Positions 12,064-24,597 of a stretch of 25,157 nucleotides of DNA are shown here, in pieces. The translations under genes and the position numbers were made by a program. This DNA comes from a virus, in the IMG/VR virus record IMGVR_UViG_3300022745_000137, positions 1-25,157 of that record, one strand, 5' to 3'. The first letter of the stretch is position 1. The number at the start of each line of letters is the position of its first letter. The notes beneath the pieces were generated by a model. It did not search any database and was not told the DNA's origin. It was given only the letters and a program-made list of their open reading frames with translations.

Positions 12064-12456
12064 CTACCAGAGGCTCAGTTGATCGGGGTCATTCTTCGGC
12101 CAGGCATCCTCGCTGCGATCTGCCATTCCGGCAATCCAGCGGCGCACCGTCACGTCCGTCGTGTGCAGTTTGCGGGCGATTTCGGCGTGTGACAAGCCCC
12201 CTGCGGTTTTCATATAGCAGGCGATCCACGGCTTGGCCGTTGGCACCCGCCGCGGCAGGGCAGTGCGCTCGGCCAGTTCAGACAAGGCCTTGGCGGCGGG
12301 CATGCCCAGCACATCGACGACACGGCTTGCCCCCTTGGGGTCTTTCGGGATCGACAGTTCCGCCCCGCCAAACTCCAACAAAAAGACAACCGCTGTCTCC
12401 GCGCCAAGCGCATCGACATAGGGCTGCACATGGGCTGGCGGGCGGGGGTAGGTCAT
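12064..12456 (-). CDS. Mor/C-family transcription activator
   Basis: This is a 130-residue DNA-binding protein. FLLEFGGAELSIPKDPKG (about residues 28-45) resembles the GG-x-x-x-IP strand of the Mor/C dimerisation region. SHAEIARKLHTTDVTVRRWIAG (about 92-113) is a helix-turn-helix. Mu Mor and C activate middle and late promoters, and this gene lies directly before the lysis and morphogenesis genes, fitting a late activator. It ends in QLSLW, a candidate sliding-clamp-binding peptide (see findings). Coupled to the upstream gene by ATGA. Confidence 0.72.
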   Translation of the reverse strand: MTYPRPPAHVQPYVDALGAETAVVFLLEFGGAELSIPKDPKGASRVVDVLGMPAAKALSELAERTALPRRVPTAKPWIACYMKTAGGLSHAEIARKLHTTDVTVRRWIAGMADRSEDAWPKNDPDQLSLW

Positions 12457-13197: not shown

Positions 13198-13938
13198 TCA
13201 GACCTCCCCGAACAGCGGCAGTTGATCGGGATTTTCCCGCTCGGCCCGGTACGCCGCGACAGACATGCTGCGTGCCTCGGCCTGCCGCCAGTCGCGCTCG
13301 TTCTGCAGCATCCGTTCCAGTTCGGCGATCCGTTCCAGCCACGACGAAGCGGTATTGTCCGCAACCCCGTCCGGATGAACCATCCCGCAGCGCTGGATCG
13401 CATGCATCTCCTCCAAGGTCCGGTCCTGCGACCAGTTCAGCCGCTTGGCGATGACCGAAAGGCTGTAGGTTCCGGCCTCCATCATGGCCAGCAACTGCCC
13501 CCATTTCGGGTCGGCCGCCTTCAGATGCGCATGGCAATGGTCGAGTTGCCCGCGCAACTGGCGGATTTCCTCGACATGCACCTCGTCCCGATTCAGGAAG
13601 TAGGCTGCCAGCACGTCGTCCGCCTCGTCCTGATAGAGTTCCAGCATTGCTCGGACCTCCGGCTTGACCCGGTTTGCCGAGATCGACGCCAGCCAGCCGA
13701 ACAATTTTGACCGGGGAATGCAGTAGGTTTCCTGCAATCCGCCTGCCGAAGGGGTGTTGATAGCAACACCCCTCCAGCGCTTTTCGGCCTTCAACCGCTG
13801 AAGCTGACTGCTCCAACTCATGCCGAGGCGCTCGCAGATTGGCCGAACGGCGACCATCTGTGCGTCCGGCGTTTCGATTGCCGTGATCGTGTCCTCGTGA
13901 AAGGGCACGGATATGACGGAAAGTTTGTCCTGAGACAT
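13198..13938 (-). CDS. P22 antirepressor-type N-terminal domain protein
   Basis: This is a 246-residue protein. Residues about 6-110 match the P22_AR_N pattern: VPFHEDTITAIETPDAQMVAVRP (shown in part), ICERLGMSWSSQLQRLK, and PRSKLFGWLASISANRVKPE. The middle part (about 145-180) carries a possible helix-turn-helix (SLSVIAKRLNWSQDRTLEEM) and the C-terminus is helical. P22 Ant binds and inactivates phage repressors. A comparable role against the S24 repressor here is possible but unproven. The start has CAGGAG seven bases upstream. It is first after a long leader with a promoter candidate. It ends QLPLFGEV, containing a candidate clamp-binding motif. Confidence 0.82.
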   Translation of the reverse strand: MSQDKLSVISVPFHEDTITAIETPDAQMVAVRPICERLGMSWSSQLQRLKAEKRWRGVAINTPSAGGLQETYCIPRSKLFGWLASISANRVKPEVRAMLELYQDEADDVLAAYFLNRDEVHVEEIRQLRGQLDHCHAHLKAADPKWGQLLAMMEAGTYSLSVIAKRLNWSQDRTLEEMHAIQRCGMVHPDGVADNTASSWLERIAELERMLQNERDWRQAEARSMSVAAYRAERENPDQLPLFGEV

Positions 13939-14184: not shown

Positions 14185-14622
14185 TCACAGCTTGATCCCC
14201 GCTCTTGTGCACATGGCCTTCAGCGCCTCGATCACCGTGGCGATCTGCTTCCAGTCCTGCATCTTGTCGATGTCGATCGGGGCGGCACCCCATGCCTTCT
14301 CGAACCGGGCGCGGATAAAGGCGTTGAGACCCTTGGCGCCGGTGCCGTCGACGGCCCCAGCCTTGACCAGCTTGCCCCACAGGACGTGGCAGAAGCGGAT
14401 ATCGCCGCGCGGCGCGGCTTTCCTGCCCTTGCGGGCGAATTTCGTGCCGGGGGCGAAACCCCGGGCTTTCAGGGCTTCGACGACGCTGTCCAACTCGCCT
14501 GCGGTCATCTCCGTCAGGCTGGACTTGCCGGTGGTGACCAGCTGCAGGTCGCGCCGCGTGTCCTCGTCCAGCCCCAGCTCACGCGCGGCGACATGGATCA
14601 ACCTGATCTGCGGATGGCTCAT
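14185..14622 (-). CDS. gemA: GemA-family regulatory protein (DUF1018, Mu gp16)
   Basis: This 145-residue protein opens SHPQIRLIHVAARELGLDED, followed by RRDLQLVTTGKSSLTEMT, the hallmark start of GemA/DUF1018 proteins. FCHVLWGKLVKAGAV and FIRARFEKAWGAAPI follow, also typical. In Mu, GemA affects host gene expression and DNA relaxation during lytic growth. It lies at the end of the early block, as in Mu. It overlaps the upstream gene by an ATGA junction. Confidence 0.92.
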   Translation of the reverse strand: MSHPQIRLIHVAARELGLDEDTRRDLQLVTTGKSSLTEMTAGELDSVVEALKARGFAPGTKFARKGRKAAPRGDIRFCHVLWGKLVKAGAVDGTGAKGLNAFIRARFEKAWGAAPIDIDKMQDWKQIATVIEALKAMCTRAGIKL

Positions 14623-16329: not shown

Positions 16330-16877
16330 TGACCAACCCCCCGGATCAGGTGAACGGCGTCCGTATTGTCATCGACGATGGCCCGCAGGCGGCGCTCCAT
16401 CGGCGGCTTGGGACCGGTGTTGTTGATCAGCCGGTAGACGGCCTCGACCAGCGGGGGCGATGCCTTGCGCATGACGCGCAGATAACCTGCGGCCAGCAGA
16501 CTGCGGCAATAGGCCTGCGCCTCTTCAGTCGTGACAACCATTGGATCAACCGTGGCGTTCGCGGCTAGAACCGAGGGTGTGAAGGCCCCAAGGCCTCGCA
16601 TCGCAGTCCACAGGTTCTCCTCGGCCGACCGACCGCGCGGCTTTTCCGGACGGGCGGCACCGGGTGCAACGCGCCACAGCTTGCGCTTGTTGACTTCAGG
16701 AGCGACCACTTCCAGGACACCGCTTTTTGCCCATGACCGCACAATGACCGTGGCGCGCTCATGGCTGATCTTCACGGCAGTCGCGATTTCAGAATAGCCG
16801 AACTTGGGAAGCTGAAGCGCTGCCGCCCAGGCTGCGGCAAAGATGGCGGAACTCGTCGGGGAAACCTTCGGCATCAT
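16326..16877 (-). CDS. Putative winged-helix accessory protein of the transposition module
   Basis: This is a 183-residue protein. Residues about 25-55 (KFGYSEIATAVKISHERATV, then IVRSWAKSGVLEVV) form a winged helix, and a second similar unit may lie near 118-140 (EEAQAYCRSLLAAGYLRVMR). It starts with ATGATG overlapping the MuB stop, so it is translationally coupled to it. It may bind DNA in transposition or replication of the phage, by position. I do not recognise a named family. Confidence 0.75.
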   Translation of the reverse strand: MMPKVSPTSSAIFAAAWAAALQLPKFGYSEIATAVKISHERATVIVRSWAKSGVLEVVAPEVNKRKLWRVAPGAARPEKPRGRSAEENLWTAMRGLGAFTPSVLAANATVDPMVVTTEEAQAYCRSLLAAGYLRVMRKASPPLVEAVYRLINNTGPKPPMERRLRAIVDDNTDAVHLIRGVGQ

Positions 16878-17665
16878 TTGCCCCCCTTCAGGCGACGAGC
16901 CATCCCGGTTTCCTTCAGGTCGACCTGCTGCACGCCTCCGCGACCCGGCGGGTTGCCGGTATGGAAATCACCAGTCCAGTCGGCCCGGGTAACGCGATGC
17001 AGCCCCCGGATGACGGCAAAGTTGCGGATGTTCGACAGGTTGTTGGCGATATATCCCTGCGAGGCGCCAGAGGCCGTTAGGATGGCCTGCTGCAGATCCG
17101 GGGCAATCTCTACCCCTTGCGCATAGACCGCAGCCAGGTGGCCCACGTCTTGCAAAGTGGCGGGCTCGGCCTCAACCCAGTTCAGAATACGCCGATGCAC
17201 CCGTTCCCACTGGGTCAACTTGTGGGGCAGCCGTTCTTCGCCCATCAGGATGACCGCGACGCCGCTTTTGTCATGCAAATGGCGGATCGTCTCGATCTTG
17301 GTATCGTTCAGGACAAGGTCAGCCTCATCGATGATCAACGGGCGTTGCGTGATCGCCAGTTCCTGTGCCGCCTGATCGAACAGATCGCTCGACAGGCGTG
17401 CGGGTTTCAGGCCCAGCTCCTGAACGATCATCTCCAGCAGCTTCTTGACGCCGCCCAGCGGCACCGCCTCGATGTGGCAGACATTCATCCGGCTGTTGGA
17501 CGCATGGATGGCACCTTGGGTCTTGCCGCGTCCGGTCTTGCCATAAAAGCAGCCCATGCCAGCCAGTCCGTAGTCGCGGTTCTGGCACTGGTCGATCAAG
17601 GCCATCAGCCTTGCTACATTGGCAAGTGGTGCGAAACCCTTGCTCGGTCGTTGGTCATCTGACAC
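16874..17665 (-). CDS. B: MuB-type AAA+ ATPase, target DNA activator
   Basis: This is a 263-residue ATPase with Walker A GKTGRGKT (residues 42-49), Walker B PLIIDEAD (109-116) and sensor-like VILMGEERLPHKL (about 136-148). This matches the MuB/IstB-like TniB group. MuB polymerises on target DNA, brings it to the transposase and protects phage DNA from self-integration. The start is GTG at 17665 with GGAGG ten bases before it. Compared with Mu B (312 residues) it lacks most of the N-terminal extension with the helix-turn-helix, as in other short MuB homologues. It follows the transposase after a hairpin-containing gap. Confidence 0.94.
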   Translation of the reverse strand: MSDDQRPSKGFAPLANVARLMALIDQCQNRDYGLAGMGCFYGKTGRGKTQGAIHASNSRMNVCHIEAVPLGGVKKLLEMIVQELGLKPARLSSDLFDQAAQELAITQRPLIIDEADLVLNDTKIETIRHLHDKSGVAVILMGEERLPHKLTQWERVHRRILNWVEAEPATLQDVGHLAAVYAQGVEIAPDLQQAILTASGASQGYIANNLSNIRNFAVIRGLHRVTRADWTGDFHTGNPPGRGGVQQVDLKETGMARRLKGGK

Positions 17666-17724: not shown

Positions 17725-19908
17725 TCATCCAAAAAACGTGTCACCCACCGACTCCCAGACCAGAAGCTGGCCCCGGTACTCGGATGAATTCTGATAGGCT
17801 CTCAGCCAGCGCAGCTGCTCGGGCGTCACAGTCGCCCCGGCCTCGATCTGCCGCTCCAAACTGATCGCAGTCTTGAAGCGGTCGATTTCCCGCTCCTCGA
17901 AGGGGCGCACCTCCGTCCGCTTGCTCTCCATCGACAGCACATTGCTGACCATCTCCGACTGGAAACGCGCTGCCTCCGGCGTCAGATCGCTGCCCTGACG
18001 CACCTCGTGTACCGGCGCTTCGGCAGGTGACCGGGCAGGCTTGCCGAAGATCGGCTTGATCAGCTTGGCCTCGGGCAGCGGCGTCTCAACGGGGGCGACC
18101 TCATTCAACAGGTTGCCCGCTTGTGTGGCGGTATACTTTCGATGGGCCGCCAATAGACGACGGGTCGCAGCCTTGAACTCGTTGCGGGCGCGGTTATGCG
18201 CAATGGCCTCTTCCTGATCCAGAAAGCCCACGGCCTCGGTCACCGGCGCATGGCCAAGGTAGGCACCAGCCCGGCTGTAAACATGCAAACCGGCCCAGAA
18301 GTCGCCCAGGTCGAACCGGATGATGACTTCCTGCTTGGCGATATCCAGCATCCAGTCCGCCCAATAACGGTTCTTCTGGAATGTAATCGCCCCGGTTTTG
18401 CTCTCGGCCCGCAGTCCCTCCGACCCCAGCAACCACAACCGCCGCTGCGCCGCCGTGGCCTTGCTGATCACCGATGTCGCATAGCTTTCCTCAAAGACCT
18501 CGGCAAAGCTGCGCTGATAGGCCGTGGGTGACCGGCGGTTCTGCCGGGTATTATGCTCGGCAATACGTTCCGCCAGCACCTTCAGGAAGGTCTCCAGCGG
18601 CACCGCGCGGCTGCCATAGTCTTCCGGCTTGGCGGTCGGCTTGTTGCCCGTATAGGCCCCGTCGAACCGCACATCCTTGGCAATCGACTGCGCCATATCG
18701 CGGAACGCTCGCTCGATCGGCTTGGCCTGACCGTGATAGGGCGTAGCCCAGTGGATCTGGCACCCCAGTTGGGTGAACAGCCCTTTGACGTCATCTTCCT
18801 TGACCTTGAACCGAAAGCGGTTGGCAGCGCCGCCCGTGATCTTCTTGGCGGCGTTTTCCCGGCCATTGTCGAACAGGATATGTTTCGGGATGCCGTAGTC
18901 TTCAATCATGTCGCCAGCTGCCATTTGAACGGCAAAGGCTGTCGTGGCCTTGTCGACCCGGTAGGAAAGCACCATCCCGGAAAATACGTCCTGATACATC
19001 ACCATGTGCGGGCGGCAGGGCGGGTTCTTCTTCGGGTCCTCGCCCTGGACATGCGGCCACTGCACGAACACGTCGAAGGTATGCGTGTCCGAGTTCACGA
19101 CCTCCATCGCATGCAGGGCAGTCTTGTCACGGATCTGTGCGGGGTAAAGCTGGGCCACCGCCTCGTCACCCTCGCGTGCCAGCACCTGCACCTGGCGCGG
19201 CACAAGGCGGTCCATGTGCCGACGCATGGTACGCTCGGGCAGATACTGCCAGCCCTTGGCCTCGGCCACTTTAACGGCATCCCGATAACAGTCGGTGAAA
19301 GTGGGACCGGCCAAACGCAGATAGAGGCTCTTCAGATAATCGAAGAAGCCGAGATCATACTCCTTGCCGCGCGGCCGCTCAGCAGCAGCCCGATTGCGCG
19401 GTGCCAGGTAGGCCAGACGATCGTCCGCCCGTACCCCGGCGATCATGCCGAACCAGTCCCAGATCGTCCGGACACCGACGCCCTTGTCCCGTGCGATTGC
19501 CCGCACCGCCGCATCGCGGCCCAATCCGCTGGATTGCTCAAAAGCCTCGATCATCTGGAGGATCAGCAAACGATCACGGGCCTTCTTCTTCACCGTTTCG
19601 GGCAGCTTCTCGAACCATGACCAGGCATCATCCCGGTTCATCGCTTCGGTAGGACGCTTTGGTGCCACCGGGGCAGAGGCATCCTTCAGCAGCTTGCGTT
19701 GTGCTCGGGCTGGGAACAGCTTCCAGCTATATTCCCACCCGCCGCCCTTGCCTGCCCGACGCCGCGCAAGGTCGGACTGCGCCTGCCATGCCAGCCGGTC
19801 TGCCAACAGATTGGTTCCACGCTTGGTGGCGGGCATATCTGGCAACTCGGCTGCCGCGATCTCTTCGGCCGTCCACCATTCTTGCGCAGGGATCAGGGCG
19901 TGGCTCAT
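17725..19908 (-). CDS. A: MuA-type DDE transposase
   Basis: This 727-residue transposase has an N-terminal DNA-binding region (WWTAEEIAAAELPDMPATKR) and further end-binding helix-turn-helix units up to about residue 240. The catalytic core holds Asp274 (VVNSDTHTFDVFVQW), Asp347 (PKHILFDNGRENAAK) and Glu399 (GQAKPIERAF), equivalent to Mu Asp269, Asp336 and Glu392. A beta-barrel follows, then a C-terminal tail that would contact MuB and ClpX. Length is slightly above Mu A (663). It pairs the phage ends and carries out strand transfer. It overlaps the ParB-like gene by ATGA. Confidence 0.97.
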   Translation of the reverse strand: MSHALIPAQEWWTAEEIAAAELPDMPATKRGTNLLADRLAWQAQSDLARRRAGKGGGWEYSWKLFPARAQRKLLKDASAPVAPKRPTEAMNRDDAWSWFEKLPETVKKKARDRLLILQMIEAFEQSSGLGRDAAVRAIARDKGVGVRTIWDWFGMIAGVRADDRLAYLAPRNRAAAERPRGKEYDLGFFDYLKSLYLRLAGPTFTDCYRDAVKVAEAKGWQYLPERTMRRHMDRLVPRQVQVLAREGDEAVAQLYPAQIRDKTALHAMEVVNSDTHTFDVFVQWPHVQGEDPKKNPPCRPHMVMYQDVFSGMVLSYRVDKATTAFAVQMAAGDMIEDYGIPKHILFDNGRENAAKKITGGAANRFRFKVKEDDVKGLFTQLGCQIHWATPYHGQAKPIERAFRDMAQSIAKDVRFDGAYTGNKPTAKPEDYGSRAVPLETFLKVLAERIAEHNTRQNRRSPTAYQRSFAEVFEESYATSVISKATAAQRRLWLLGSEGLRAESKTGAITFQKNRYWADWMLDIAKQEVIIRFDLGDFWAGLHVYSRAGAYLGHAPVTEAVGFLDQEEAIAHNRARNEFKAATRRLLAAHRKYTATQAGNLLNEVAPVETPLPEAKLIKPIFGKPARSPAEAPVHEVRQGSDLTPEAARFQSEMVSNVLSMESKRTEVRPFEEREIDRFKTAISLERQIEAGATVTPEQLRWLRAYQNSSEYRGQLLVWESVGDTFFG

Positions 19909-23904: not shown

Positions 23905-24597
23905 ATGGACCCGATTCTAGATACCATCGACGCTGCTCTGAGGAAGAAAGGGCTGACTGATGCAGCAGCTTCGAAGCTGGCTGTCGGGCACCCTTCGTTG
24001 ATCAAGAATTTGCGAATGCCTCGGGATAGCGAGAAGCGTTACAATCTACCGTCCTTGATGAAACTGGCTGCAGTTCTCGATCTTGAGTTCCACTTTGGGC
24101 CGCGACGGGAGCCAATTGGCGTCGAACATGTCATCGTCGACGGCGCCGACTTCGCCTCGATCCCCTTGCACGAGGCCTATCTCTCCGCCGGTCCAGGCCT
24201 GATGAACGGGGACGATGTGGCGATCATCGATCACCTGGTCTTTCGCCAGGACTGGCTGCGCAAGATCGATGTGAAGGCAGGCGATGCGGCCATGGCACGG
24301 ATCTCCGGCGATAGCATGGCGCCGGGCATCCAGAACGGCGACCTCGTGATGATCGATACCACCCGCCGTGAGGTGCCCACGCGCAAGGCTGTGCGTAAGC
24401 CGCAGCAGCTGCCGATCTTTGCCTTCATGCAGGATCAGGAGGCACGTGTTAAACGGCTTGAGCGATTGCCGAAAGAGCGTATCCTCATCCTCTATTCTGA
24501 CAACAAGGACCTCGCGCCAGAGATCATCAGCGAGTCCGATGCCCATACCATCAACATCCTCGGGCAGGTCGTGTGGTCTGGTCATGTGTGGCGTTAA
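23905..24597 (+). CDS. LexA/CI-type phage repressor, S24 peptidase
   Basis: This is a 230-residue repressor. Residues 1-65 form an XRE-like helix-turn-helix region (LTDAAASKLAVGHPSLIKNL). The C-terminal S24 domain has the nucleophile Ser137 in ISGDSMAPGIQNGDLVMID and the likely general-base Lys183 in ARVKRLERL. An Ala95-Gly96 pair in YLSAGPGL is the probable self-cleavage site. It should hold the prophage silent and be inactivated through RecA after DNA damage. This differs from Mu c, which is not a LexA-type repressor. It is divergent from the early operon and faces the phage left end. Confidence 0.93.
   Translation: MDPILDTIDAALRKKGLTDAAASKLAVGHPSLIKNLRMPRDSEKRYNLPSLMKLAAVLDLEFHFGPRREPIGVEHVIVDGADFASIPLHEAYLSAGPGLMNGDDVAIIDHLVFRQDWLRKIDVKAGDAAMARISGDSMAPGIQNGDLVMIDTTRREVPTRKAVRKPQQLPIFAFMQDQEARVKRLERLPKERILILYSDNKDLAPEIISESDAHTINILGQVVWSGHVWR

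Follow-up and report, generated by a model that had tools for sequence, protein, structure and literature searches.

Clamp-type C-terminal tails on Mor/C-family activators and an antirepressor-like protein of Mu-like phages

Introduction

It has been reported that late transcription in phage T4 is activated by the sliding clamp, to which gp33 and gp55 attach through C-terminal epitopes placed on linkers (PMC2988020, PMC7892883), and clamp-activated transcription has been regarded as special to the T4 family (PMC2988020). Mobile elements are also known to use the clamp of their host: insertion-sequence transposases, e.g. that of IS1634, bind it through a C-terminal QLxLF in an alphaproteobacterium (PMC4549789). 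The clamp motif has been described as Q-phi-x-[L/M]-[F/L] or Q-phi-x-[L/M]-x-[F/L], and its strict form has F, L or I at position 5 (PMC11139829).

Mor and C, the middle and late activators of phage Mu, have been studied for decades. Middle and late transcription of Mu reportedly depends on Mu replication, a result ascribed to work of Marrs and Howe in 1990. In vitro, RNA polymerase is sufficient for activation by Mor, which requires the C-terminal regions of alpha and sigma70 (PMC4287176). According to a second paper, which also states the timing of the Mu late genes, C too activates in vitro with RNA polymerase alone and works through beta prime (PMC4461284). Complexes of Mu C and Mor with polymerase have been deposited in the PDB (9l0x, 9l0y and 9vw8). 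In the papers found, which cover the literature in part, the mechanisms described for Mor and C involve DNA and RNA polymerase only and a clamp-type tail is not mentioned; within the same partial coverage, no paper was found in which the sliding clamp is linked to Mor, to C or to transposable phages.

Results and discussion

Gene layout of the window

The window, i.e. the whole stretch of DNA analysed, is the 25,157-base virus record IMGVR_UViG_3300022745_000137 (positions 1 to 25,157). Its gene order is Mu-like: an S24-type repressor, a ParB-like protein, MuA transposase, MuB, GemA and a P22_AR_N protein are followed by three small genes, a Mor-like activator, a lysis-type gene and structural genes, the last two groups being assigned by our own reading of the translations. 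Since a MuA-type transposase is present, the phage should replicate by transposition. The order GemA, activator, lysis gene, as for Mor/C activators, was found in the window and in related loci. No PF00712 match, which would mark a phage-encoded sliding clamp, was obtained in the record, a 25-kb piece that is possibly incomplete. The main features are listed in Table 1.

Table 1 Features of the window with clamp-type tails and Mu-like marker genes
Feature	Position	Strand	Basis
MuA-type transposase	17725..19908	-	PF02914, E 2.3e-47
MuB-type AAA ATPase	16874..17665	-	PF13401, E 2.9e-14
GemA, Mu-like phage marker, upstream of both tailed regulators	14185..14622	-	PF06252, E 9.2e-18
P22_AR_N antirepressor-like protein, 246 aa	13198..13938	-	PF10547, E 1.5e-32; phrog_524 anti-repressor Ant, E 1.5e-38
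QLPLF clamp-type pentapeptide, residues 239-243 of the P22_AR_N protein	13210..13224	-	translation; followed by GEV and stop
Mor/C-family middle/late transcription activator, 130 aa	12064..12456	-	phrog_836; Mu Mor/C profile match
QLSLW clamp-type pentapeptide, extreme C-terminus of the Mor-like activator, residues 126-130	12067..12081	-	translation

Among 234 stop-to-stop frames of at least 60 aa in the window, only two, those of the P22_AR_N protein and the Mor-like protein, show a clamp-type motif within the 12 C-terminal residues. A scan of the MuA-type transposase and the MuB-type ATPase with Q[LMIV]x[LM][FLW] gave no motif in either. The window tails resemble IS1634-type docking, where a mobile element reaches the host clamp by a C-terminal QLxLF, but there the motif is on the transposase, whereas in the window it is on transcription regulators. 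QQLPIF in the S24-type repressor (23905-24597) was not counted, being an internal motif located inside the peptidase domain.

Identity of the Mor-like activator

The Mor-like protein ends in KNDPDQLSLW by translation. The preliminary description had given its tail correctly but had counted it as the third gene downstream of the P22_AR_N gene; since three small genes lie between the two, it is the fourth. The phrog_836 late transcriptional activator profile matches it (E 1.2e-20) and matches Mu Mor and Mu C as well, while the Pfam Mor model PF08765, to which Mu Mor and C do match, gave no match to the window protein at E up to 1. When the window family was aligned with the Mu Mor/C family, hhalign returned a probability of 95 and E 4e-8, and the aligned region took in the tail; on this profile evidence, the two families are homologous. 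They also share the position before the lysis gene and the C-terminal tail.

The AlphaFold model of the Mor-like protein has a core at pLDDT 85-97, and residues from about 115 onward, i.e. the tail, are near 60. Fold searches with this model returned sigma-4-like and other common helix-turn-helix matches, and Mor/C entries were absent from the matches listed. The protein also has a sub-threshold match to Sigma70_r4_2, and the helix-turn-helix of its model resembles sigma region 4. QLSLW fits the clamp consensus except for W at position 5, a weaker fit that falls outside the strict form. There is precedent for W in QLPLWG of mycobacterial ImuB, a functional clamp motif (PMC10421592), and in the closest Mor relative, at 74% identity, the C-terminus reads QLTLF.

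Conservation of the tail among Mor homologues

Starting from 11 matching phage records, an alignment search led to 78 viral loci and 77 non-redundant Mor homologues, nearly all of which have a tail of the form DPRQ[L/M]xLF. The last 12 residues fit a relaxed clamp pattern in 73 of the 77, versus a mean of 3.9 after shuffling the tails and 38 of 3,200 background ORFs (other ORFs from the related phage loci). The canonical pattern, taken from PMC11139829 with P, F and G also permitted at position 2, occurs in 53/77 (shuffled tails 1.5; background 13/3,200), and 29/77 have Q[LM]x[LM]F (shuffled tails 0.07; background 2/3,200), the homologues being mutually related and the counts therefore not independent trials. 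Ten columns are invariant in an alignment of 48 Mor sequences, and two of them are Q126 and L129 of the tail. The linker before the Q/L element is mostly 6 to 20 residues long and changes freely. Both motif classes seen in known clamp ligands occur, pentamers as well as hexamers such as QLKLPL, QLNLPL, QLTLRL and QPNLPL, and the motif is the exact protein end in 56 of 75 Mor-family motifs, with up to 14 residues after it in the others. The Q, L and F codons vary synonymously, and the constraint therefore acts on the protein; for this reason, we rejected the idea that the 3' end of mor holds an element acting at the nucleotide level.

The residues just before Q are strongly kept too (D 58/75, P 43/75, R 58/75), which exceeds the clamp consensus. 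One homologue of the alphaproteobacterial-type set (L059:3370-3876) ends in RRYLSRDGPRARV, which contains no motif; it may be frameshifted or truncated.

The tail in phage Mu and other gammaproteobacterial phages

Mu Mor ends in RQYQPSLL, with the motif QPSLL. Mu C ends in HQPDLFSPETPK, where the motif QPDLF is followed by six residues; the peptide around it is RHQPDLFSPETPK. A clamp-type tail was found in 14 of 14 aligned Mor/C proteins of gammaproteobacterial phages, of which the 13 besides Mu Mor are 28-63% identical to it. Q is invariant and the key residue is L (M once). The 14 motifs are QPSLL, QPDLF, QYSLDM, QPELF, QPNLF, QRDLF, QRRLF, QPDLF, QGKLF, QMPLL, QRRLF, QGKLDL, QGDLF and QFDMF, and several of them, with R, G or Y at position 2, fit the relaxed pattern only.

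Link of the tail to transposable phages

PF08765 proteins from 398 Pseudomonadota genomes were pooled with phage examples, and the presence of GemA in the fetched stretch was used as a proxy for a transposable phage. The tail is present in 38 of 46 Mor proteins with GemA in the same stretch versus 4 of 39 for which GemA was not found (Fisher p 8e-12, with relatedness ignored), and the four tailed GemA-less cases are phage records for which only short flanks were fetched. Most tail-less Mor-domain proteins stop directly after the helix-turn-helix. Eight of the 46 GemA-linked proteins have no recognisable motif; some of these exceptions resemble the motif in a variant or decayed form (TGDLFH, NGTLF, KDLFNN, RQLSFNF). 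If the tails bind DnaN, they would be a sequence mark separating the Mor of transposable phages from other Mor-domain proteins.

The short Mor-domain proteins that end after the helix-turn-helix (L124-L127, L130, L132, L133, L135, L149, L153 and others) occur in up to five copies per genome, mostly in a GemA-less neighbourhood.

The P22_AR_N antirepressor-like protein

The P22_AR_N protein ends in ERENPDQLPLFGEV by translation. Its PF10547 score is 112.6 bits against a cut-off of 30.7, and it is thus assigned by sequence to the P22_AR_N family; the antirepressor role is predicted from this domain. Within its last residues, NPDQLPLFGEV, the QLPLF codons run from 13224 down to 13210, exactly where the preliminary description had placed them, and the pentapeptide matches Q-phi-x-[L/M]-[F/L]. 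Residues 239-246 have pLDDT below 50 in an AlphaFold model that is weak overall (mean pLDDT 67), so that the QLPLF stretch is predicted to be disordered. The flexible C-terminal setting that had been supposed for QLPLF is thus borne out at the level of the model.

Three other Mu-like phages have P22_AR_N tails upstream of mor, QLSLFAGA, QLQLFANA and QPSLFAEG, and an ORF6N-domain protein of a fourth ends in QPDLFDQV. Q, L and F are invariant in the five related proteins, the window's included, while the rest of their C-terminal parts is dissimilar. The two P22_AR_N homologues L039 and L047 have tails of the Q[LM]x[LM]F form. P22 Ant-type antirepressors share the N-terminal PF10547 domain with the window protein, but a clamp-type tail is absent from five P22_AR_N proteins of non-Mu-like settings (BaM-IFTN8, CUS-3, ABMM1, E6 and L106). 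In this small sample, QxxLF plus three residues is thus found in 4/4 P22_AR_N proteins from Mu-like phages versus 0/5 elsewhere. Single-protein scans of the viral and genome collections with the antirepressor gave no relatives, and an alignment search returned the three loci known before and one tail-less P22_AR_N protein. PF10547 was not found in 394 genomes of the family of G001, and the evidence on the antirepressor, which comprises five proteins, is therefore thin. The Mor/C result is the stronger of the two.

Host clamp and proposed role of the tails

DnaN of three alphaproteobacterial genomes that carry related prophages shares 37-39% overall identity with the E. coli protein, and 18 of 20 positions of its docking pocket are the same as in E. 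coli, the host of the window phage being known by kinship alone. The comparison of C-termini that the preliminary description had proposed gave a strongly positive result, the homologues of both regulators in transposable phages keeping Qxx[L/M][F/L/I] or Qxx[L/M]x[F/L]. It had also suggested a shared docking partner and a possible coupling of the lytic switch to replication, with the emphasis on the antirepressor. Since the tail is conserved in both sets of homologues and the DnaN pocket is conserved as well, the shared partner is well supported at the sequence level; the emphasis has to be moved, because the broad result lies in the Mor/C family.

From these facts we infer both binding and coupling: the tails probably dock the regulators on the host beta clamp and so tie middle/late activation to phage DNA under replication. 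As the phage transposes replicatively, DnaN (beta) clamps would be left by the host replisome on freshly copied phage DNA, and the flexible C-terminal Qxx[L/M][F/L/I] tail of a promoter-bound Mor/C activator, attached by its helix-turn-helix, could reach such a clamp. Docking would concentrate or stabilise the activator, and RNA polymerase too, on replicating copies of the phage, and middle/late transcription would thereby be tied to replication. The antirepressor-like protein, with a similar plug, may be brought to the clamp-bearing site as well. Because Mor and C are active in vitro without a clamp, the clamp would assist or restrict activation and not be strictly required.

More tentatively, and with some doubt on our side, this may extend to Mu-like phages in general: they would use the host beta clamp as a transcriptional co-activator, with Mor/C docking on newly replicated DNA, which would make a second, independent case of replication-coupled late transcription besides T4, in Mu itself. 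Both systems would place a short C-terminal clamp epitope on a flexible linker of a transcription factor, the Mor tails being alike at the motif level, and in both the late genes follow replication. In T4 the clamp, the sigma factor and the co-activator are all the phage's own, whereas here a DNA-binding Mor/C activator is used and the clamp would be host DnaN; the coupling is demonstrated in T4, whereas for Mor/C we infer it. Clamp docking by Mor/C would be convergent with that of gp33/gp55 on gp45. If the tails bind DnaN, Mu Mor and C would be clamp-assisted activators; there would then be a direct mechanism for the Mu late genes coming on after the start of replication, and clamp-activated transcription would extend beyond the T4 family.

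The same motif evidence could be explained if the tails bound the clamp to divert or restrain the host replisome, by competing with polymerases and repair proteins or by drawing the replisome to phage DNA, with no coupling to transcription. An overproduced clamp-motif peptide does inhibit growth of E. coli (PMC11139829), and the tailed antirepressor-like proteins are, as far as known, not promoter activators. We consider this unlikely, given that DNA-binding transcription activators would make poor general inhibitors and that MuA and MuB of the window are without the motif. Rather improbable is a reading of the tail as an RNA polymerase contact for activation (alpha-CTD, sigma region 4 or beta prime), with the likeness to clamp ligands due to convergence. 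It would agree with the polymerase parts through which Mor and C work, and the tail, coming after the helix-turn-helix, could reach polymerase; but interchange of pentamers and hexamers, tolerant positions 2 and 3 and an invariant Q are the behaviour of clamp ligands, linker length is widely variable, and antirepressor-like and ORF6N proteins have the tail without an activator domain.

A C-terminal degradation signal that shortens the lifetime of the regulators is very improbable: hydrophobic C-termini can act so and most motifs are the exact protein end, but six residues follow the motif in Mu C, up to 14 in others and three in the antirepressors, and the invariant element is the internal Q, not the final residue. 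Chance likeness or plain shared ancestry without function can hardly be credited, even though these proteins have common descent and a motif of five residues is easily found, since the tail is far better conserved than the linker, reaches Mu Mor/C at low identity and is missing from most Mor-domain proteins outside a GemA context. The motif, its conservation, its link to transposable phages and the host pocket are observed, and flexibility is predicted; the tails are not a product of chance. Docking on the host clamp is thus our preferred reading.

Additional peptides in Mor/C proteins

A [Q/N]xxLF-like peptide is present at the N-terminus of several gammaproteobacterial Mor/C proteins, namely MQHDLF in Mu C (L093:2464-2886) and others in L094-L098 and L102 (QDDLF, QSELF, NQDLF, QLDLL), and may be a second clamp-type motif. 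One Mor protein (L123:1456-1815, minus strand) has two tandem clamp-type motifs at its end, QGDMF and QPSLL. In L136, two adjacent Mor-family genes (1042-1779 and 1820-2413) follow GemA, one tailed with PRQLSLF and the other tail-less.
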